Part shown: positions 30,975 through 41,483 of the stretch, one piece after another
How the letters are laid out: every line of letters begins with the position of its first letter
How positions within the stretch are numbered: the stretch's first letter is position 1
NCBI GenBank assembly: GCA_031263155.1
Contig: JAISGK010000015.1
Coordinates: 1-47,031 of the forward strand
Length of the DNA: 47,031 bases
Reading direction: 5' to 3'
DNA from: Clostridiales bacterium
GTDB lineage: Bacteria; Bacillota; Clostridia; Lachnospirales; WQUN01
The notes under the pieces: generated by a model
The model's input: the letters and a program-made list of their open reading frames with translations, nothing else
Database searches by the model: none
What the model was told of the DNA's origin: nothing
Position numbers and translations under genes: made by a program

Positions 30975-31134
30975 TCCAATTCGCAATCAATAGAAACTTA
31001 GAAGTCCGCGACACGCAGGGCTTGGTTTTTGTTGGAATTGGACTGGCGCTATCAAAGGACAATGGGTGTTTTATGCCCATTTTGCCTTAATATGCGTTTT
31101 GGCTCCTTTTCCAGCGCAGAAAAGGAGCTTTTTT
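30975..31134 (+). promoter_or_regulatory. Transcription attenuator of the ABC-F gene
   Basis: A terminator hairpin, GCTCCTTTT (31102-31110) with AAAAGGAGC (31120-31128), is followed by six T that end right at the ABC-F ATG (31135). The Shine-Dalgarno AAAGGAG is inside its 3' arm. Upstream, TCCAATTC (30975-30982) can pair with GAATTGGA (31035-31042). AAAGGA (31054-31059) can pair with TCCTTT (31104-31109) as an antiterminator. ATGGG/CCCAT (31062-31080) forms a small hairpin. A ribosome stalled on the leader ORF could shift these pairings. Confidence 0.7.
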
Positions 31135-32628
31135 ATGTCTTTAATTAGCATTTCTAATCTTACATTTGCCTATGACGGCAGTTATGATAATATTTTTACC
31201 GATGTGTCCTTTCAGATTGACACCGATTGGAAACTGGGTTTTTGTGGGCGTAACGGGCGCGGTAAAACGACATTTCTCAAACTGCTGATGGGCCAATACG
31301 AGTATAGCGGAAAGATTTCCGCAAGCGTGGAGTTTGAGTATTTTCCTTTCGCCGTTGCCAACCCATCGCAAAATACATTGGACATACTAACCGCCATTGC
31401 GCCCGACGCTTTCCATTGGCAAATACAGAAAGAATTGAGTAAGCTGTCTGTCAGCGAGAATGTACTTTACCGCCCATTTTCAACCATGTCCAACGGCGAA
31501 CAGACAAAAACACTGCTGGCAGGTATATTCCTGCGTGAAAATAGTTTTCTGCTCATCGACGAGCCGACAAACCACCTGGATATGGCGGCGCGTGAAATGG
31601 TGGCGCAGTATTTGAACGGCAAAAACGGTTTTATCGTCGTGTCCCATGACCGCACGTTTTTAGACGAGTGTATTGACCATGTGCTGTCTATCAATAAGTC
31701 GAATATCGAAATACAAAGCGGCAACTTTTCGTCTTGGTGGCACAACAAGCAGATGCAAGACGAATATGAAATGGCGCAAAACGAGCGATTGAGAAAGGAA
31801 ATTTCTCATCTGGAAGCCGCCGCCCGACGAACGGCGAAATGGTCAGACAAGGCAGAGCGAAGTAAAATTGGCATTGACCCAAATAAAGTGGACAATAAAA
31901 AGGGGTATGCGCCTAAGCAAGCGGCAAAATCAAAAAAGATGATGGCGCGTTCCAAAGCCATCCAAGACCGCCAACAGAGCAGTATTGAAGAAAAGTCCAA
32001 ACTGCTGAAAAACATTGAGACCTCCGATACACTGAAACTCCGTCCGCTCGCGTACCACACATCGCGTTTACTATTTATTGAAAATCTATCTGTCGCTTAT
32101 GATGGACAGAATGTGTTTCGCGATATGACTTTTTCTATTCATCAAGGTGAACGGGTTGCCCTTGTGGGTGGTAATGGCTGCGGTAAAAGCAGTTTAATCA
32201 GGTTGATTTGCGGTGACGATATTCCCTATAGCGGGACAGCGATGCTTGGCAGCAGGCTTATCATCAGCTATGTGCCGCAGGATGCGTCATTTCTGATGGG
32301 AGATTTGAATGAGTACGCCGTCGAGCAGCAAATTGACGAAACACTTTTCAAGACAATACTGAGCAAGCTGGACTTGTCACAAACGCAATTTGATAAAGAT
32401 ATGCGTGATTACAGCGCCGGACAAAAGAAAAAAGTGTTGATTGCGCGAAGTTTGTGTGAGCAAGCACATCTGTATATCTGGGACGAACCGCTCAATTACA
32501 TTGATGTGTTGAGCCGGATGCAGATTGAGGAACTGATTTTAACATATAAACCGACATTACTCTTTGTAGAGCATGACAGGGCTTTTTGTAGAAATATAGC
32601 TACAACAACAATCGAATATAAGAAATGA
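31135..32628 (+). CDS. ABC-F ribosome-protection ATPase (Lsa/CplR-like)
   Basis: A 497-residue protein with two ABC domains and no membrane segment, hence an ABC-F translation factor that dislodges antibiotics (typically lincosamides, streptogramin A, pleuromutilins) from the ribosome. Domain 1 has CGRNGRGKTT and MSNGEQTKTLLAGIF. A long charged interdomain linker spans about residues 195-310. Domain 2 has VGGNGCGKSS and YSAGQKKKVLIARSL. The Glu after Walker B is present in LLIDEPTNHLD and is kept as DEP in domain 2. The start at ATG 31135 follows AAAGGAG; the frame stays open upstream but would cross the attenuator. The exact drug profile cannot be read. Confidence 0.88.
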   Translation: MSLISISNLTFAYDGSYDNIFTDVSFQIDTDWKLGFCGRNGRGKTTFLKLLMGQYEYSGKISASVEFEYFPFAVANPSQNTLDILTAIAPDAFHWQIQKELSKLSVSENVLYRPFSTMSNGEQTKTLLAGIFLRENSFLLIDEPTNHLDMAAREMVAQYLNGKNGFIVVSHDRTFLDECIDHVLSINKSNIEIQSGNFSSWWHNKQMQDEYEMAQNERLRKEISHLEAAARRTAKWSDKAERSKIGIDPNKVDNKKGYAPKQAAKSKKMMARSKAIQDRQQSSIEEKSKLLKNIETSDTLKLRPLAYHTSRLLFIENLSVAYDGQNVFRDMTFSIHQGERVALVGGNGCGKSSLIRLICGDDIPYSGTAMLGSRLIISYVPQDASFLMGDLNEYAVEQQIDETLFKTILSKLDLSQTQFDKDMRDYSAGQKKKVLIARSLCEQAHLYIWDEPLNYIDVLSRMQIEELILTYKPTLLFVEHDRAFCRNIATTTIEYKK

Positions 32629-32906
32629 GTAATACGAATGTACGGAAAATCGGATTTTGCCGGTCTGCGTCATCCCTTTTGGTTCATGGCCAAAATAAGG
32701 ATACATGAAACATACGTTTGTGTGATTTGATTCTTTTGCTGTAACAAATTATCTTATCAAATTCTAATAATAGTTTAACGTGTTTCTTATTTATTGGCTG
32801 TAGAATAATAGGGGGGTATGAGAAAATGGGCGGAGTGCGCCGCCCGCTGTTGTGGTAAATACCAAACAACAGATGGAGAATCCCTCATGTTGTTTGGTAT
32901 TGTGAG
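32629..32906. other. Intergenic region between convergent genes
   Basis: No gene is visible. GGGCGG/CCGCCC (32828-32845) forms a small hairpin, and a long perfect hairpin follows at 32859-32900 (separate entry). The rest is AT-rich. Confidence 0.5.
32859..32900. terminator. Long hairpin downstream of the radical-SAM operon
   Basis: ATACCAAACAACA at 32859-32871 pairs perfectly with TGTTGTTTGGTAT at 32888-32900 (13 base pairs, 16-base loop), immediately after the stop of the minus-strand operon. It lacks a clear T run, so it may stabilise the 3' end rather than terminate. Confidence 0.5.
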
Positions 32907-35393
32907 TTATTTTACCCCTGTCAACATTGCCCCGCGCTTAAATATGAGTATGTGCATACCCGCTTTTTGCGCGGCGGCTTGAGCATGGTTGAGCCTTGAG
33001 GCGAGCGTGCCTGTCGACAAGGTAGAATCGCCAGTGAGCGTAAAGTTTACGGGCGTAAAGTTTACGCCTATCATATTGGCGCCTACCAACAGACCCGCCG
33101 CCTGCCCGTTTTTGTGCATATGATCGAGCGCGGCGAGGGTGGGGATAAAGGCCCCCGGCAGCGCGAGCCGCAAGATGGATATGGCGTTTAGCAGAGTGTT
33201 AATATTTTCTCGTGTTTGCGGTTGTTCGCCACCCTCAAGTGACATGTGCTCGCTAGCCGTGATCGACTCCAGAAGATCTGGGCTTGTGTCAAATCTTGTC
33301 GAACGGGCTTCAAAAAGATTCACATTTACATATTCCGGCTTTAGCGATATGCAATATTCAATGTCAGCAGCCACATCATAGAGCGTTTGTTTAGGCAGAC
33401 CGATCGCAATGCCCGTGCCAAGGCTTAATCTTGCGTCGCGTATGTACCTGAGACAATCCAGTCTGTGTTGTGATGACGCGTTGAATACGTCTCTGTAAAT
33501 GCCTTCGTTTGAAGTCGAAAAATCTAATATGTAACCTGTGGCTCCCAATTGGGCAAAACGTTTATATGCGTCAAAAGATTTTTCGCCAAGGGCGAGCATT
33601 ATGTTGCCTCTTATCTCGTTGCCGGTAAACATGTCTTTCATGGCAGATATGATATCTTCCAGCATTTTGTCGTCCGCCGATTGATCGCTTTGCAGCACTA
33701 TTGTTCTTATGCCACGATTGATGATCTGCCGCGCGCCGTTTAAAATAGCCTCGCCGTTTGCGGTTTCACCCTCTGGTATGTTAATAACGCCATTAATGTT
33801 CAAAAAACTGCCAAACCTCGCTTGCCGTACCTGTCGCGCGGCAGTGAAGAGGGCTTGCTGCGCGTCACCCGATACGGATAACAGCTCTTGAATGTTATCG
33901 GCGTTAAGCGATACGTCACGTCGAGCGGACAGATCGTCTATCAATTGGTTCACACCGTGTCCATTAATGTTAAAAACGTGGGCCGATGAGCCAAACGCAT
34001 CCTCTTTTGTGTTGCACTTGTATGGATTAAGGACCCCGTCGGTATACGAATCCTGCGGGAAGGGCTTAAAGTCGTTGCTGTTAAACTGTTCCGCTATTTC
34101 ATCAGCTACAAACCCGCCAAGATCCGTGAGTTTCAGGATGCGGTCGTTTTCTTCAACGAGTCCGTATTCTTTTAGCAGACGAAATTTTTCTGTAAACACA
34201 CTATCCAGTGTTACGCCGTTTATGCGCTCAAACTGTTTCTTCTTTACATCCATATTTTTGAGCGGGAGTATGATGCTCCAACGCAGCTGCTGTTCGGGGC
34301 CGCGTATGTAGCCGCGTGTTGTGGGCAAGCGGAGCGAGTCTATCAGGCTATAATATTCTTTAAAATATTGTGTGTTAAGCGCGAATCTGTCGCGGTAGCT
34401 GCTGAACGCGGTTATTCCAAAGCCGACCTGGTCGTACAGGTTGCAGCACTGGTTGTAGGCGTAGTGGGAAATGTTCTTTTTGTCGCGCGTATAGACACGG
34501 CGCATATTTTCATAATATCCCGCGTCGTTCAGAATGTTTATCGCGTGTTGCTTCATGGTCATGGTTTGCTCAAATGTCATGGTTTCTTCACGCCTGTTAA
34601 GGATCTCACCCTGATAATCGCCATAGGCTAACACCTTAAGGCGGTATATCTGAATCTCATCGGTTGGCAGAGTGATCGCCTGGCGTATAGTCTCTTCCCA
34701 ATTTTGCAATGTTTCGCCGGGATGACCGTATATAAATTCTATGTTGACATCAAAGCCAAAACGCTTGCAGTTTTCTACAGATTCGATCGCCAGTGACGCG
34801 TTGTGAGCGCGGTTCATTATCTTCAGCACTTTGTTGTCCAGCGATTGAATACCAATGGTTAGCCTTGTGACGTGTTGTTCTTTCATTATGCGCAGGCGTT
34901 CCAGCCCCTCCGACCCCACCAGGGTGTTGGGATCCACGTCGTAATTAAACTGTTTGCATTTGGCAAGGTCGATATGTTCGTTAAAAAACTTCAAAAAATC
35001 CTCCAGCATTTCTGGAGCCATATATGTGGGTGTGCCGCCGCCGATGAGTATTGAGCGCGCCCTTATTTTATCTATACCGAAGCGTTGTTTGTACAGCAAG
35101 ATCTCGCGTTTAAGATAGCCAAGGTAGCGCGCTTTTTCTTCCACTTGCGGCCCAAGCTTGCCCGGGTAGTGGCAAAAGACGCAATGCTGCGCGCAAAATG
35201 GAAAATGCACATAAATGTCTAAGCAGCCGTCTGACGGTTGTGTATATGTTTCGTACACCGCGTTGTCTGTCATAGGCAGGTATTTTGTGATGGGCGGGTA
35301 GTGCACGCTTGGCACGAAGTCACCGTCCCTGCACACCACCCCCAATTCCTGTAGGTATTTCATCTCTTTTAGGCGCTCGTCAATGCTCTTCAT
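32907..35393 (-). CDS. HemN-like radical SAM protein fused to a HydE/BioB-like domain
   Basis: An 828-residue protein. Residues about 50-450 are HemN-like: FPFCAQHCVFCHYPGK gives Cys67, Cys71 and Cys74 for the Fe-S cluster. GGGTPTYM, TIGIQSLDNKVL and FIYGHPGETLQNWEE follow, then a winged-helix tail. Residues about 480-828 resemble HydE or biotin synthase, with ELLSVSGDAQQALF, a TIVLQSDQS strand, GIAIGLPKQTLYD, AISILRLALPGAFIPT and a GANMIGVNFTP ending. The expected CxxxCxxC loop is missing there: after INGVINIPEGE the chain goes straight to the next helix. The family is usually 380-460 residues per barrel. The role is unknown. It is the last gene of the FHA/kinase unit, 84 bases after the kinase. 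Confidence 0.82.
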   Translation of the reverse strand: MKSIDERLKEMKYLQELGVVCRDGDFVPSVHYPPITKYLPMTDNAVYETYTQPSDGCLDIYVHFPFCAQHCVFCHYPGKLGPQVEEKARYLGYLKREILLYKQRFGIDKIRARSILIGGGTPTYMAPEMLEDFLKFFNEHIDLAKCKQFNYDVDPNTLVGSEGLERLRIMKEQHVTRLTIGIQSLDNKVLKIMNRAHNASLAIESVENCKRFGFDVNIEFIYGHPGETLQNWEETIRQAITLPTDEIQIYRLKVLAYGDYQGEILNRREETMTFEQTMTMKQHAINILNDAGYYENMRRVYTRDKKNISHYAYNQCCNLYDQVGFGITAFSSYRDRFALNTQYFKEYYSLIDSLRLPTTRGYIRGPEQQLRWSIILPLKNMDVKKKQFERINGVTLDSVFTEKFRLLKEYGLVEENDRILKLTDLGGFVADEIAEQFNSNDFKPFPQDSYTDGVLNPYKCNTKEDAFGSSAHVFNINGHGVNQLIDDLSARRDVSLNADNIQELLSVSGDAQQALFTAARQVRQARFGSFLNINGVINIPEGETANGEAILNGARQIINRGIRTIVLQSDQSADDKMLEDIISAMKDMFTGNEIRGNIMLALGEKSFDAYKRFAQLGATGYILDFSTSNEGIYRDVFNASSQHRLDCLRYIRDARLSLGTGIAIGLPKQTLYDVAADIEYCISLKPEYVNVNLFEARSTRFDTSPDLLESITASEHMSLEGGEQPQTRENINTLLNAISILRLALPGAFIPTLAALDHMHKNGQAAGLLVGANMIGVNFTPVNFTLTGDSTLSTGTLASRLNHAQAAAQKAGMHILIFKRGAMLTGVK

Positions 35394-35476
35394 ATACCCT
35401 CCAATATCTATGTCTCATTGTTTAAGAACATCAGTATTGCTGTTGTATCAAGTGGATATCTTACCCGTTTTAATTA

Positions 35477-36922
35477 TTACCCCTGCTCGTTCTCACGCGC
35501 CCGATCCTCTGGCGTGCCTTCATCTTCTTCGGGGATATTTTCGCCAGCGACTGGCGGTTCGTCTCGCGCTGGATTCCCCTGGGCATACGCGTTGGGATCA
35601 TCAGACATCTGCGGCATAATGGTCACAATTATGATCTCCGGTGAAGGGGGTGTTAAAATGTACCGAAAGCCTTCCGGGCGCACGCCAGACTGTGAAGAAG
35701 AGGTGGGGGATTCTAGGGTTACGGGTTCACGATATATAGAGTCGTAGTATTCCACTACAACTTGCGTAAGTCCGATAAAACCCGCGATAGCCAACGCAAT
35801 GGCCACGGTGACAAACCCTTTGCGCATGTGGGCCGGCTTTACGGCGAGGGTATCGGCTGGCTGTGTTCTGTTGGTTATCACAAAAAGATCTTGACGAAGT
35901 TCACTGACAGACTGATAGCGTTCGTGATAATCAATGGCCAGCATTTTTTGCAGGATAAACTCGAAGCTATTGGGTATGCGTACACCCATTTGCGATGGCC
36001 ACTTTATACGCTCACGCATGAGCGTATCTTCGCCTGAACTTTTACTTTCAGACGGGGCGGTATCCGCGCGCAATATGGATTCGACAGGAGCCTTGCCCGT
36101 GAGCAGGCTGTAGAGCGTCGCGCCCAGCGAATATATGTCGCACCATGGGCCGGGTACATGTTTGGCATACAGCTCTTTTGGAGTAAAGCCCTTTTTAATG
36201 TGCAGATCAGTGGCGCCATCTGTTTGATACAGTCTGCGGGACGCGCCGAAATCAAGCAGTTTTATCACGCCCATGCTCACGCCGTCCTGCGAAATGAATA
36301 TATTGTCGGGGCTAATGTCTCCGTGCAGAATATTCTGTGAGTGTATGTCGTGCAACAGATAAACCATTTGAACCAATACGCTGATAGCCCTGTCATAACC
36401 CATTGGCCCGTTGTCCTTAACCCACGTTTTCAAATCAACGCCATCAATGTGCTCCATTACATAATACGCGGTGTTGTTTTCGTAGAAAAAGTCGTACACA
36501 TTAACTATGCCAGGGTTATGCTCAAAGCGGGTAATAATTTTTGCTTCGTCATAAAAAGTCTCTATACCTGCGTCAAATCGTTCCTGAAGGCTGGCGCTTT
36601 GCGCTTGTACCGCGAATCCTCCCGGCACTCTGCGCGCTATAGCAGGAAAATATTCTTTAATCGCTTTTATATCGTCCGTTTCGATATCATACGCTATGTA
36701 GGTGATGCCAAATCCGCCGTGACCCAGGGTTTTACCGATTATATAACGGCTAAGCAACACATTGCCCATCGCCAGAGAGTTGCCCGGCGCCTTTTCGTCG
36801 TTATGCGTCTTGCGTTCGTCATATCCGCAATACGGACACACAAACCTGTCGTTTTTACTACTAAATTCCAACTGTTCTTTAAAGCAGCATGGGCATAACA
36901 AATGTTCGTGGATATCTAACAC
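35477..36922 (-). CDS. Zinc-ribbon Ser/Thr protein kinase, membrane-anchored
   Basis: A 481-residue kinase. An N-terminal zinc ribbon (LLCPCCF and FVCPYCGYDE, about residues 9-40) precedes the kinase domain: GKTLGHGGFGITYIAYD (glycine loop), AIKEYF (Lys), HGDISPDNIF (catalytic loop, with HGD in place of HRD) and LLDFGASR. One membrane helix (about 385-405, VTVAIALAIAGFIGLTQVVV) is followed by a short Pro/Glu-rich extracellular tail. The GTG at 36922 follows AAAGGCGGG and lies one base after the exporter stop; a longer frame would overlap the exporter gene. It probably phosphorylates partners read by the FHA domains (inference). Confidence 0.88.
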   Translation of the reverse strand: MLDIHEHLLCPCCFKEQLEFSSKNDRFVCPYCGYDERKTHNDEKAPGNSLAMGNVLLSRYIIGKTLGHGGFGITYIAYDIETDDIKAIKEYFPAIARRVPGGFAVQAQSASLQERFDAGIETFYDEAKIITRFEHNPGIVNVYDFFYENNTAYYVMEHIDGVDLKTWVKDNGPMGYDRAISVLVQMVYLLHDIHSQNILHGDISPDNIFISQDGVSMGVIKLLDFGASRRLYQTDGATDLHIKKGFTPKELYAKHVPGPWCDIYSLGATLYSLLTGKAPVESILRADTAPSESKSSGEDTLMRERIKWPSQMGVRIPNSFEFILQKMLAIDYHERYQSVSELRQDLFVITNRTQPADTLAVKPAHMRKGFVTVAIALAIAGFIGLTQVVVEYYDSIYREPVTLESPTSSSQSGVRPEGFRYILTPPSPEIIIVTIMPQMSDDPNAYAQGNPARDEPPVAGENIPEEDEGTPEDRARENEQG

Positions 36923-36923
36923 G

Positions 36924-39281
36924 CTATTCCCGCCTTTTTGGATGTGCGATATCATGTGTGCCAAGCAAGCATATGGTGAGACATACGAGTGTGATAATGA
37001 CCATTGCGCCCCATGACCATCCAAGATTGTTCCAAGTGTGGTCGAAAGCTGCGTCAAGGTAGGTTACAGAGGTCGAATCGGCATTGTCGCCATATTCGTT
37101 TAGGTCGCACAGCACGGCGTAACCCTGTATGGCCCATTTGCAGTGTATTAAGTTGGATATGAATGTCGTGACGCCTTCTAACTCAAAAGCGACGCCTGAG
37201 AATAAAATTTGCGGCATAAGTACAACAGGCGCCAATGTCATGGCCCTATCAGCATTGGGCGAGGCGGCGGATATGGCAAGCCCCAACGCCGAGGCGGAAA
37301 AAGCGCATAAGAAAGTAGTAAAGAACATACCGCCAAAGGGATACACGCCCAAGTCGTTGGTTGGGAATTTTCCCAAATACATCATGCAGACCATAACAAG
37401 CATGTACGATTGAAACAGGCAAAACGCTCCCAACACAGCCAGCTTGGACATGAGATAGGGGGCGAGTTTAAGCACCGCCATACGCTCACGACGAAAAATA
37501 TCGCGTTCTTTACAGATCTCCTGTACAGCGTTAAGCATACCCAGCCAAAACGCGGCGCATGCCAGTGAAAACAAAAACGCCTTCGTTTCGCCACTGTAAC
37601 GATATACCTTGTTAAGCCCGTTATCGTCTACGCCGTATGACACCGCAGATAGCAACAGGCCAAGCAATGGCGCTTGTAAAATGAGCATGAGCAATCGTTT
37701 GGGATCCGCCAGAATCAGTGCTAGATATCGGCGGCTCAATACGGAGAACTGCCTTATCGCAGATTTTTTGTTATCTTCCAAAAGGCCATGCCCGGCGTTA
37801 TAAGATGGAACCTCTGGGGAAGAAGCCTCGTCCCGCTTTACATACAAGGGGCTAAGCTCGTAGGTGGTATACCGCAATCGCCAACCATCGGGATTTTGGC
37901 TTACCTTTTCATATATCTCCACAAAATCGTTAACGCCGAAAAATTGCAGCGCCTCGGCCGACGAGCCATAAAAGCACAGCTTGCCCCCTTCGCCAAGCAC
38001 AACCAGCTTGTCGCACAAAGAAATGTTGGCGGTTACATGGGTTATCGCGATGACTGTCTTGTTTTGTAAGGTCATGCCTTTTAGCGTTTGCATAAACTTT
38101 CGCTCTGTTCCGGGGTCCAGTCCTGAAGTCGGTTCGTCAAGAAACAGGATAGCTGGATCCGCAATAAGCTCTACAGCCACAGAGGCGCGTTTGCGTTGTC
38201 CGCCCGAGAGGTTTTTAATCAGCGTTTGGGCTCTGTCGCCAAGCTCCATTGTTTGGAGCACCTGTTCCACCCGTAGAGTACGCTCTTCCGCCGAAGCGTC
38301 GTCCGCCATGCGAAGCTCCGCAGTGTACATAAGCATGTCGCGAAGCGTCAACGTGTCATACACTATATCACGCTGCGGCACGTACCCTATGAGGTCGCGC
38401 AACGATTGATAATGCTCGTATAAAGAGTCGTCGCCATAATAAACATCGCCGTCAGTAAAGAAAGAAAATCCGCACATGCCGTTAAGCAAAGTACTTTTAC
38501 CCGCGCCCGACCCACCTATGATGGCAACAAATTCGCAAGGAAAAACGCTGAAGCTCACATTATCCAATATCTTCTTTTTGTCGCCCTTACCGCCTACGCT
38601 AAAATTAGCCTTGCGAACATGCACAGCAAAGGTGGGGCGTTGCTTGTTGTAGTACAAAGTACCTTTCACATAAACGAGTTTCGCTTCGCCAAGGAATATA
38701 ACGTCTCGTTCACACAATTTGACACGGCCGTCTATTCTTTTCCCGTTTATATATACTTTGCCATGCTTGGGCAATAACCAGCTCGTGTCGTCCGAGGTGT
38801 AAATGGAGGCGTGATGCCGCAAGACCTCGCTGTAGTCAAGGGTTATGTCGCATTTATGGCTGCGCCCTATTGATATCTCTTTTTCGGGCAGCAACATGGA
38901 TGACCATATCGCGCTGGCGTTTTGCGGTCTATAGTTGAGCACCATGACGACCGCGCGCACGTGCTGACTAAGAACTCTTGCCTCGGGCGATTCAAAGGTT
39001 ATGGTGTCGCCATCTTTTAGCATGCGCTTTCCTTCAACTCTAGCGCCATTTACATATATTCCGTTGGTACTGTCGCGATCATTAACAATTACACGCTCGC
39101 CGGATGGCGTACTGGCAAGGCTTAAAAATCCATGAAAAAGGGATGCGATCTCAGAGCGAAGGACGATTGCGTTGGTATCCGCCCTGCCGAAAGATATCGT
39201 TTCGGTTTCGAATTCGGCCAGCTCGACCTCAACCGGCTTAAGGGCGCCGACGACCACAGTGAGCGTTTGATTATCATACAT
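36924..39281 (-). CDS. FHA-FHA-ABC exporter (Rv1747-like)
   Basis: A 785-residue single-chain ABC-2 transporter half. FHA domain 1 (about 20-105) includes ISFGRADTNAIVL and DRDSTNGIYVNG. FHA domain 2 (about 125-205) includes ISIGRSHKCDITLDYSEVL and HHASIY. The ABC domain (about 215-460) has GGSGAGKSTLLNG, LSGGQRKRASVAVELI and LFLDEPTSGLDPG. Six membrane helices follow (about 510-785), as in ABCG proteins. Mycobacterial Rv1747, with two FHA domains and partner kinase PknF, has the same layout (known). Phosphorylation by the adjacent kinase is inferred. The exported substrate is unknown. Confidence 0.9.
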   Translation of the reverse strand: MYDNQTLTVVVGALKPVEVELAEFETETISFGRADTNAIVLRSEIASLFHGFLSLASTPSGERVIVNDRDSTNGIYVNGARVEGKRMLKDGDTITFESPEARVLSQHVRAVVMVLNYRPQNASAIWSSMLLPEKEISIGRSHKCDITLDYSEVLRHHASIYTSDDTSWLLPKHGKVYINGKRIDGRVKLCERDVIFLGEAKLVYVKGTLYYNKQRPTFAVHVRKANFSVGGKGDKKKILDNVSFSVFPCEFVAIIGGSGAGKSTLLNGMCGFSFFTDGDVYYGDDSLYEHYQSLRDLIGYVPQRDIVYDTLTLRDMLMYTAELRMADDASAEERTLRVEQVLQTMELGDRAQTLIKNLSGGQRKRASVAVELIADPAILFLDEPTSGLDPGTERKFMQTLKGMTLQNKTVIAITHVTANISLCDKLVVLGEGGKLCFYGSSAEALQFFGVNDFVEIYEKVSQNPDGWRLRYTTYELSPLYVKRDEASSPEVPSYNAGHGLLEDNKKSAIRQFSVLSRRYLALILADPKRLLMLILQAPLLGLLLSAVSYGVDDNGLNKVYRYSGETKAFLFSLACAAFWLGMLNAVQEICKERDIFRRERMAVLKLAPYLMSKLAVLGAFCLFQSYMLVMVCMMYLGKFPTNDLGVYPFGGMFFTTFLCAFSASALGLAISAASPNADRAMTLAPVVLMPQILFSGVAFELEGVTTFISNLIHCKWAIQGYAVLCDLNEYGDNADSTSVTYLDAAFDHTWNNLGWSWGAMVIITLVCLTICLLGTHDIAHPKRRE

Positions 39282-39352
39282 TCGTCCCTCCTCCCTCTAA
39301 AAATGCGAAAATTTACGCATTAGCGCCATTGCCGCAAGCCGCGAAAACCAGG

Positions 39353-39829
39353 TCACAGGTTGCGGACTATGATAAATTGCCCTCCCACTACGTCTATACG
39401 ATCAAAATCGTTGAGCATTACGCGCCCCGCCACGGGGATGCCATTAAGCAAAGCCGGGTATTGCCCCGCGAGCTGGTAAAGATAGAATTGATTGGCATAA
39501 GAATCGTAGTAGATTACCAGGTGCAATGTCTCATCAGTATTCCCCAAAATGCTTATGTCGATATCCATTTCGCTGCCAATATGTGTTTCCGGTTTCACAA
39601 TAGATATGTCGTGTCCAAAAATCGCGCATTTATTGCATACAAGAAAGCCCAAAACGGTGATGTCAGGCGTGTTCGACACCATGGGGGCGTCACGCTGGGT
39701 AGTCATCGCTGTATGTGGGCTAAGGCGTCGGGATACAGCTCGTTTTTTGGATGGGGAGTGACCTTTTAGATCTCCAGACAGTTTCGCCGTTGGGTTTTGT
39801 TGTACAGCTACTGTAAACCCGTAGTCCAA
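39353..39829 (-). CDS. FHA-like domain protein
   Basis: A 158-residue protein. A basic, flexible N-terminus (about 1-55, rich in Lys, Arg, Ser and Thr, and a possible phosphorylation target) leads to a divergent FHA domain: THIGSEMDIDISILGN, then a YYDSYANQFYLYQL strand and LNGIPVAGRVMLNDFDRIDV. It keeps the IGS turn but lacks a clean Ser-x-x-His. No membrane segment is visible. It is 4 bases after the zinc-ribbon/FHA gene and 71 bases before the exporter. Confidence 0.72.
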   Translation of the reverse strand: MDYGFTVAVQQNPTAKLSGDLKGHSPSKKRAVSRRLSPHTAMTTQRDAPMVSNTPDITVLGFLVCNKCAIFGHDISIVKPETHIGSEMDIDISILGNTDETLHLVIYYDSYANQFYLYQLAGQYPALLNGIPVAGRVMLNDFDRIDVVGGQFIIVRNL

Positions 39830-39833
39830 TTAG

Positions 39834-40322
39834 TCACCCCCCTTTTGAATATTGAGCCCAAGGAAACAATTCGCAACACAAAGGTTTGAAACGCAGCGCG
39901 CGCGAACCAATGGCAAGTATATCCCCAGCGTACAACAAAGTGGGATTAATCAGCAGGTTGCCGTTAACCCGCACTACCCCCTGCCCTAAGCCGTTAAGCA
40001 ACCAAAATTCATTTTGCTTATCGTCGAAAATAATCACGGCGTTTGCCCGGGCAAGGTCACGTCCGGCAGCGGGAGCAATGTCGCGTTCAAATATGTAGTT
40101 TTTGCCGTTGGTAAGCTTTAGCACGCGCTGTGAAGAGTCGAAGTTGATTGCAAGGAGCCATCCGGTAGTGGGTGAATTGATCATGTCGTCAGGAAAAAGC
40201 GGGCGCGCAACCGGCGCCGGAGCTCCTGCGCACTTTGGGCATATCGCTCCTGGAGCGCTAAGGTAACGCGTTCCACAGCGAGGGCAATCGATCAAACGTG
40301 TAACTTTCAAAGGCATCACCAT
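39834..40322 (-). CDS. Zinc-ribbon plus FHA-like domain protein
   Basis: A 162-residue protein. The N-terminus has two Cys pairs (DCPRCGTRY and ICPKCAG, about residues 12-37) forming a zinc ribbon like that of the kinase. After a Pro/Ala linker comes an FHA-type beta domain (about 60-150) with FERDI, NEFWLLNGLGQGVVRVNG and AGDILAIGSRALRF. The usual Gly-Arg and Ser-x-x-His phosphothreonine pocket is not evident, so it may be a structural FHA. It is the first gene of the FHA/kinase unit, behind a consensus promoter. ATG 40322 or ATG 40316 could be the start. Confidence 0.72.
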   Translation of the reverse strand: MVMPLKVTRLIDCPRCGTRYLSAPGAICPKCAGAPAPVARPLFPDDMINSPTTGWLLAINFDSSQRVLKLTNGKNYIFERDIAPAAGRDLARANAVIIFDDKQNEFWLLNGLGQGVVRVNGNLLINPTLLYAGDILAIGSRALRFKPLCCELFPWAQYSKGG

Positions 40323-40374: not shown

Positions 40375-40402
40375 ATTATATTATTAATTACGATAATGTC
40401 AA
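40375..40402 (-). promoter_or_regulatory. Consensus promoter of the FHA/kinase operon
   Basis: On the minus strand, a perfect TTGACA (40402-40397) and a perfect TATAAT (40380-40375) are 16 bases apart. The predicted leader is about 45 bases. Both boxes match the sigma-A consensus exactly, which suggests strong, unregulated transcription. Confidence 0.75.
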
Positions 40403-40634: not shown

Positions 40635-41483
40635 TTATTCATCTTTAAGCGGTATAGAACGCCACGACGTTAAAATAAAACCCTCGCGGCGCGCAAATTC
40701 TATCAGGTCGCCGCCAAGCAGTAAACGATACTCCCACTCGCGCTTAATCCATTCACCATTCTTCGTTTCATCCTTCATGGACGGATGCAAAAAAACCTCG
40801 GTAACGCCTACCGGGGAGCGCGCAAGCTCTCGCATGTAATAGGATTTGAGGTCGTCATAGCTTTCTATGTCCTTTATCGGGCGCGGGTCAGTCACCATGT
40901 CGTCGGGCAGCGGCACCCCCATTGCGAACGCAAGCGCGACAATTGCCTTATGCATCGCCAGCACGGCAGGGTTTACGCTACCCATCATACGATTGAGAAA
41001 GCCGCGTGTTTTTGCCAAACGAAACGCCAACCCGTTAGCCGCGCACAGTCGAAACGCCGGGATAAAGAAAAAACGCCCGTTAAGCCCGTACAGATCGTTG
41101 CCGTGGCAATCGGCGTGATCGGGTAACAGCCCAGTATCATTAAGCCGGGTTAATTGCGCGGACAATTCATTTGCGACATCCCTCTTATCCGATCGCCTGA
41201 TAACGTCTTTGTCAAATGGAAGCAGGCCGCCGGCACAAAAAGACTTGCCTTTGCTTGCGGCCTCCCACAGGTCGTTTTCGTATTCGCTGCGCAGGGTCCA
41301 ATGCGCGCCCACGCTCATATTTAACAGCAGCGCTATATCGATAGCCTGCCTAGACATAGCGGCGGGTATCAGTATGGACGCGGAATTGATAAGCCCCTGG
41401 CTGTACAGCCGTTCGACGGCGGCGTTAACGTAGTGGCTTATGCCAAAATCATCCGCGTTTATTATGAGATATCTCTTATTCAT
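40635..41483 (-). CDS. YdjC/ChbG-type carbohydrate deacetylase
   Basis: A 282-residue member of the YdjC/ChbG/HpnK family, metal-dependent enzymes that remove acetyl groups from N-acetylglucosamine-containing sugars. The N-terminal metal motif is YLIINADDFGISHYVN (two Asp), followed by VGAHWTLRSE and the later LPDHADCHGND and EVFLHPS. The family norm is VGLHLTL, so the segment is slightly unusual. Its start overlaps the stop of the symporter gene by 4 bases, so the sugar is likely imported by that protein and then deacetylated. Confidence 0.88.
   Translation of the reverse strand: MNKRYLIINADDFGISHYVNAAVERLYSQGLINSASILIPAAMSRQAIDIALLLNMSVGAHWTLRSEYENDLWEAASKGKSFCAGGLLPFDKDVIRRSDKRDVANELSAQLTRLNDTGLLPDHADCHGNDLYGLNGRFFFIPAFRLCAANGLAFRLAKTRGFLNRMMGSVNPAVLAMHKAIVALAFAMGVPLPDDMVTDPRPIKDIESYDDLKSYYMRELARSPVGVTEVFLHPSMKDETKNGEWIKREWEYRLLLGGDLIEFARREGFILTSWRSIPLKDE

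Follow-up and report, generated by a model that had tools for sequence, protein, structure and literature searches.

A 47,031-nucleotide stretch of contig JAISGK010000015.1 (positions 1-47,031) of a Clostridiales bacterium (assembly GCA_031263155.1), taken here as a whole and referred to as the window, carries at positions 32907-40322 five minus-strand open reading frames (ORFs) that encode two small FHA-like proteins, an ATP-binding cassette (ABC) exporter with two FHA domains, a Ser/Thr kinase, and a fusion protein of the radical S-adenosylmethionine (SAM) type. We consider it reasonably probable that these genes provide a phosphorylation-gated ABC exporter coupled to a pathway with a HemN-like enzyme and a methyltransferase, and that the product of this pathway is possibly a lipid. 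We argue for a functional link between exporter and enzyme because their pairing recurs on distant branches of the exporter tree and because the two are co-inherited within Clostridia.

Five genes in one run, conserved in a clostridial relative

The original prediction, a note made by a model from the letters of the window, described five tightly packed genes behind a perfect promoter, and the coordinates, strand, and gaps agree with that description. The first gene (39834-40322, minus strand, as are all five) encodes a 162-aa protein with a zinc ribbon of two CxxC motifs and an FHA-like region; the second (39353-39829), which starts with TTG, a 158-aa FHA-like protein (PF00498, E = 0.012); the third (36924-39281), a 785-aa FHA-FHA-ABC-ABC2 exporter of Rv1747-like architecture; the fourth (35477-36922), which starts with GTG, a 481-aa Ser/Thr kinase that has a zinc ribbon at its N terminus and a membrane segment near the other end; and the fifth (32907-35393), the 828-aa radical-SAM fusion. 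The gaps along the run are, in order, 4, 71, 1, and 83 bp, the kinase start being 1 base past the exporter stop codon, and every gene except the first has a good ribosome-binding site. Ahead of the run, 52 bp from the first ATG, there is a sigma-70-type promoter (TTGACA-N16-TATAAT, 40375-40402, minus strand) that matches the consensus at 12/12 positions and is the only perfect site in the window, where 0.02 would be expected by chance. Ahead of the radical-SAM gene, by 235 bp, a promoter-like site matches at 10/12 positions, and a hairpin past the last gene (32828-32845, minus strand) is terminator-like by consensus match only.

All five genes are present in identical order in L012, a clostridial relative from another family of the same order, which we used as the reference for pairwise alignments of the fusion, the exporter, the kinase, and the first-gene protein. 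Because the order recurs in L012, the arrangement is more than chance. The exporter is 56% identical to its L012 orthologue, and Pfam finds in it the predicted domains, namely two FHA (PF00498, 1.8e-23), an ABC ATPase (3.4e-27), and an ABC2 membrane domain (9.5e-21).

An intact HemN-like half fused to a HydE-like half without cluster ligands

The fusion, 57% identical to that of L012, had been described as a double radical-SAM protein, which holds for its first half and fails for its second. Residues 1-465 (33999-35393, minus strand) form a HemN-like radical-SAM half that is intact: it matches PF04055 at 7.4e-33, keeps 116/117 near-invariant family columns, and carries a CxxxCxxC cluster motif (residues 67-74, 35172-35195, minus strand). 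The motif reads CAQHCVFCHYP, and the signature CxxxCx[FY]CHYP is invariant throughout the HemN-like family. The best NCBIfam profiles for this half are HemN, HemW, and STM4012, all with scores below the curated cut-offs (159.8 against 324.95, 138.7 against 205.4, and 166.1 against 380, respectively).

The HydE-like half (32907-33938, minus strand) appears from alignments, tree, and model to be a pseudo radical-SAM domain without cluster ligands. Aligned with L012 and a further 17 relatives, it shows a 19-aa deletion at about residues 540-546 (33756-33776, minus strand) that removes its CxxxCxxC, and the gap sits opposite CVKNCDYC of L012. Only 26/46 near-invariant positions are kept, compared with 46/46 or 46/47 in the five relatives tested, and the tip branch measures 1.87 changes per site versus 0.43 for the HemN half. 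On the HydE profile TIGR03956 (cut-off 254.6 bits) this half scores 110.3, and two intact relatives score 235.9 and 201.2. An AlphaFold2 model from 19 sequences is a HydE-like barrel (predicted local distance difference test, pLDDT, 83.9) with HydE 3iiz as its best structural match; because relatives guide such a prediction, the model is no proof of the window protein's own fold. The fusions in L012 and L014 have a HydE-like half with an intact CxxxCxYC, and the L014 protein (L014:1303-4029), a second HemN-HydE fusion, keeps the two motifs intact and joins its halves through a long linker rich in Gly and Ala. Since the HydE-like half of the window lacks the cluster ligands, this copy cannot carry out radical-SAM catalysis, and we reject two active radical-SAM domains in the fusion on the missing CxxxCxxC and the degraded invariant positions. 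A search of this genome (92% complete) for another HydE-like protein, including a true HydE as a replacement, found none. The half nevertheless has zero stops in 343 codons, whereas simulations in which the L012 sequence drifted neutrally gave about 10 at equal divergence and about 5 at milder divergence. To us it is a pseudo radical-SAM domain whose frame has been retained, with a single genome as its sole witness.

The HemN-like protein is part of a gene cassette spread over more than 10 phyla

A locus scan with the window fusion alone as query gave no matches. With an alignment of the two fusions (window and L012) as the query, a search of one-genome-per-species GTDB data gave 42 loci. Clustering of the neighbors over these loci showed a HydE-like protein in 33/42, a methyltransferase in 35/42, and an EamA transporter in 30/42; the loci were gathered through the HemN-like protein, and the counts describe its company and not that of each partner. 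The hosts span more than 10 phyla and include Cyanobacteriota, Bacillota, Bacteroidota, Verrucomicrobiota, Pseudomonadota, Myxococcota, Omnitrophota, and methanogens, and on Bradyrhizobium plasmids the HemN-like and radical-SAM genes lie side by side. One locus with the cassette, L037, belongs to a metagenome-assembled genome record titled Borreliella garinii, which is probably an error of labeling or binning. The clustering showed no conserved small ORF, with ORFs of <70 aa outside its coverage.

The methyltransferase of the cassette, which is often present in tandem, has a class I domain and an extra N-terminal region without a Pfam match. The Bacteroides protein (L042:12367-14448) starts with a signal-peptide-like stretch and a cyanobacterial one (L020:7926-9032) with a membrane-helix-like stretch, and with such N termini the SAM-dependent enzyme could sit at the membrane or beyond it. 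A secreted protein of the LTXXQ family joins the cassette in cyanobacteria and in one Desulfuromonadales genome (L020, L025, L027, L028, L030, and L032-L034).

The exporter is paired with the cassette in Clostridia and in cyanobacteria

The original prediction had named the radical-SAM enzyme as a companion of the exporter, and in relatives the enzyme is indeed present in that neighborhood rather than absent from all of them: it stands near an FHA-FHA-ABC exporter in L012, L015, L016, L019, and three cyanobacteria. In the first four, the exporter, a lipoprotein, and the enzymes are interleaved within one gene run; the three cyanobacterial loci hold FHA-FHA-ABC plus EamA. EamA was not found in any of the seven Bacillota loci. 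Within the stretch available, four of these seven have FHA-FHA-ABC and five have the lipoprotein, some of the others ending at contig edges, and FHA-ABC, kinase, and/or lipoprotein are present as far as the contig reaches. In the L014 genome, FHA-FHA-ABC lies with PP2C and FHA genes on a separate contig.

When the exporters on their tree are labeled by the presence of the cassette, this label requires a minimum of three changes, each either a gain or a loss, and its clustering is tighter than in almost all shuffles (3/500 equally low). The clade ((W,(L012,L014 genome)),(L015,L016)), where W is the window, is common to the exporter tree and the HemN-half tree; within Clostridia, the exporter and the radical-SAM enzyme are co-inherited. 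The cassette-linked exporters of Clostridia and cyanobacteria are far apart on the tree. Three independent origins of the pairing are the simple reading of this tree, although not a forced one, as the changes may include losses.

Taken in reverse, FHA-FHA-ABC was found in 11/391 genomes of the class, of which two have the cassette methyltransferase, and the nine remaining FHA-FHA-ABC neighborhoods contain no cassette genes. In this class, therefore, the broader system is the exporter, frequently accompanied by a kinase, PP2C, and zinc-ribbon-FHA proteins, and the cassette goes with a minority of it. Sets of kinase, PP2C, and zinc-ribbon-FHA genes adjoin FHA-FHA-ABC genes in the cassette-free Clostridia L079 and L082 too, so the zinc-ribbon kinase and the zinc-ribbon/FHA protein are not the new companions of the exporter that they had been taken for.

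The kinase and the small FHA-like proteins

Two zinc-ribbon proteins, one of them a kinase, had been predicted, and both are borne out. The kinase domain matches PF00069 with E = 1e-35, and its zinc ribbon, which is under the Pfam cut-offs, has 4/4 Cys kept in the L012 orthologue; the ribbon Cys of the first-gene protein are likewise kept in L012. The L012 kinase (L012:7802-10351) has C-terminal MORN repeats, which the window kinase does not have. Pfam gives no FHA match in the first-gene window protein itself, while FHA domains are recognized in its relatives from L079 (5.9e-8) and L082 (7.9e-12), and a profile-profile comparison matches the second-gene family to the zinc-ribbon/FHA family (98%, 2.2e-13). 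The clear FHA domains in relatives of the first protein and the match between the family profiles mark both small proteins as FHA-like at the family level. In the exporter, inspection by eye finds the usual Gly-Arg, Ser, His, and Asn in FHA1 and part of these in FHA2.

A second locus with a methyltransferase and a predicted LprG/LppX-like lipoprotein

The pathway extends beyond the window, with the methyltransferase and the lipoprotein of this genome on contig C8 in the order lipoprotein, tandem methyltransferase, and, 131 bp further, a 460-aa radical-SAM gene. This third radical-SAM gene (L060:14779-16161) is nearest to the ChuW/HutW profiles, below the cut-off, and has no close homologue among 60 relatives; as a guess from its position, the ChuW-like enzyme may replace the lost HydE-like step. 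The frames of the exporter, kinase, tandem methyltransferase, and lipoprotein are all open. The cassette lipoprotein was modeled from the L015 protein with four sequences (pLDDT 70.5, predicted template modeling score 0.70), and the best structural matches of the model are LprF (Z 11.0), LprG with bound phosphatidylinositol mannoside (PIM) (Z 10.6), and LppX (Z 10.6), with LolA at about 8-9. No Pfam LppX match was found for the cassette lipoprotein. Because of this predicted LprG/LppX-like fold and the PIM export proposed for Rv1747, we favor a lipid or amphiphile as the cargo.

An FHA protein on contig C21 was set aside as it sits among genes resembling pilus assembly. Tested for an anti-phage defense system with PADLOC, the genes gave only generic hits, to kinase, ABC, and methyltransferase models from several unrelated systems. 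Around the run, a gene for a YdjC-like carbohydrate deacetylase lies just upstream of the predicted operon (40635-41483, also minus strand). On the other side, an ABC-F protein (31066-32628, plus strand) scores 473.8 against a cut-off of 380 for ribosomal-protection-like ABC-F and falls slightly short of the Lsa family cut-off (714.2 against 750), and its gene is likely of the antibiotic-resistance type.

Proposed pathway and alternatives

In the pathway that we propose, the HemN-like half, with a [4Fe-4S] cluster and SAM, would probably be a methylene- or methyl-transferring enzyme that works alongside the cassette methyltransferase on a small or lipid-like molecule. The product would leave through the FHA-FHA-ABC protein, and export would be switched by the kinase, which would phosphorylate threonines of the exporter, its partners, or itself for the FHA domains to read. 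Outside the membrane, the LprG/LppX-like lipoprotein encoded beside the C8 methyltransferase would probably receive the product, and such a receiver therefore points to a lipid or amphiphile; the compound is probably made and secreted, perhaps as a fatty component of the cell surface. The HydE-like half may persist as a scaffold, its step being dispensed with or done by the ChuW-like enzyme. A biosynthetic enzyme beside an exporter fits the earlier suggestion of a system that could modify and export a molecule under phosphorylation control, of which we infer the control, the export, and its direction; the coupling itself is supported and its scope is widened beyond the window. More tentatively, we suggest that a conserved bacterial and archaeal pathway that moves horizontally, made up of the CHYP-type HemN-like enzyme, a HydE paralogue, a new type of methyltransferase, and an exporter, may yield exported lipids or amphiphiles of an unknown class, whose export was placed under Ser/Thr phosphorylation through FHA-FHA-ABC in Clostridia and cyanobacteria.

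Several observations weigh against a phosphorylation-gated, coupled exporter. The two small proteins that had been called FHA-like readers lack, by eye, the canonical phosphothreonine-binding residues, including the Ser and His common to such sites, and in the kinase HGD replaces HRD, with the remaining catalytic residues in place. The methyltransferase of this genome is on another contig, and the lipoprotein model is of moderate quality, built from four sequences that do not include this genome's own copy. Of the 11 clostridial FHA-FHA-ABC genomes, nine are without the cassette methyltransferase, and the exporter by itself therefore does not depend on it. This last count also favors the idea that the operon joins two functionally separate units, an older FHA/kinase/ABC signaling exporter and a horizontally acquired radical-SAM gene with an unrelated substrate, as do the wide occurrence of the cassette without FHA-ABC, with EamA or other transporters, and the promoter-like site before the radical-SAM gene. 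We regard such separate units as rather unlikely, as the pairing repeats in Clostridia and cyanobacteria despite their distant exporters, the exporter and the HemN half branch alike within Clostridia, the exporter, lipoprotein, and enzymes are interleaved in four relatives, and FHA-ABC stands in the Bacillota loci where EamA is missing.

Less probable still is that the window copy is a decaying remnant and the pathway defunct in this organism. In the HydE-like half, the Cys loop is gone and 20/46 near-invariant positions are changed or lost, the tip branch of this half is long next to that of the HemN half, the genome offers no other HydE-like protein, and the cassette is divided over two contigs; on the other hand, the HemN half is nearly unchanged at its near-invariant columns, the HydE-like half is free of the stops that neutral drift would bring, and the exporter, kinase, tandem methyltransferase, and lipoprotein have open frames. 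Clusters for ribosomally synthesized and post-translationally modified peptides (RiPPs) commonly hold radical-SAM enzymes, a methyltransferase, and an ABC exporter, and this general resemblance is what speaks for a modified peptide with an unseen precursor as the cassette product in place of a lipid or small molecule. We find a RiPP-type product very improbable: the neighborhood clustering, within its size limit, gave no conserved small ORF, the family matches of the radical-SAM proteins are of HemN and HydE type and not SPASM peptide maturases, and the lipoprotein fold is predicted to be of a lipid-binding type.

Relation to known systems

The cargo of FHA-ABC exporters is an open question, and an exporter that is genetically tied to defined biosynthetic enzymes would allow its cargo to be found by enzyme deletion and metabolite comparison in a cultured cyanobacterium. 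If a HydE paralogue indeed acts beside a HemN-like enzyme and a methyltransferase, the reach of radical-SAM chemistry would be widened, and the window provides a natural example of a radical-SAM domain whose cluster ligands are lost and whose frame is kept. Our search of open-access papers found no description of the cassette or of its coupling to the exporter, and both appear to be undescribed in searchable papers, whereas the exporter/kinase core is already known from Rv1747/PknF.

The cassette enzymes have relatives in several characterized families. The N-terminal half of the fusion has HemN, HemW, and the STM4012 family as its best profiles, from which its sub-threshold scores and the CxxxCx[FY]CHYP signature set it apart. 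The HydE-like proteins are nearest, by profile and fold, to HydE, the [FeFe]-hydrogenase maturase; unlike HydE, they score below the cut-off and belong to another gene cassette, and the window copy is without the cluster cysteines. In the C10P/C10Q cyclopropanase, a HemN-like radical-SAM enzyme and a methyltransferase form a proven pair that moves a methylene from SAM (PMC6050322). The cassette likewise places a HemN-like gene with a methyltransferase in most of its loci, the partner of the window enzyme being in the same genome on another contig, but it differs in the CHYP signature, the HydE-like partner, the extra N-terminal region of the often tandem methyltransferase, and the exporters.

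The exporter/kinase core, as the original prediction recognized, is like Rv1747/PknF of Mycobacterium tuberculosis, where two FHA domains are fused to an ABC exporter and a Ser/Thr kinase is in the same operon (PMC3908365, PMC5549992). PIM glycolipids are the proposed cargo of Rv1747, and a phosphothreonine of Rv2623 binds it through an FHA domain (PMC5549992). The likeness extends to the lipoproteins, as LprG has been solved with PIM and the gene set described here includes a lipoprotein with a predicted fold like that of mycobacterial LprG, LprF, and LppX, although at 7-12% identity. We found no such cassette in descriptions of Rv1747, and the clostridial system differs from Rv1747/PknF in its extra zinc-ribbon/FHA-like proteins, in the zinc ribbon of its kinase, and in the radical-SAM/methyltransferase cassette that accompanies the exporter.
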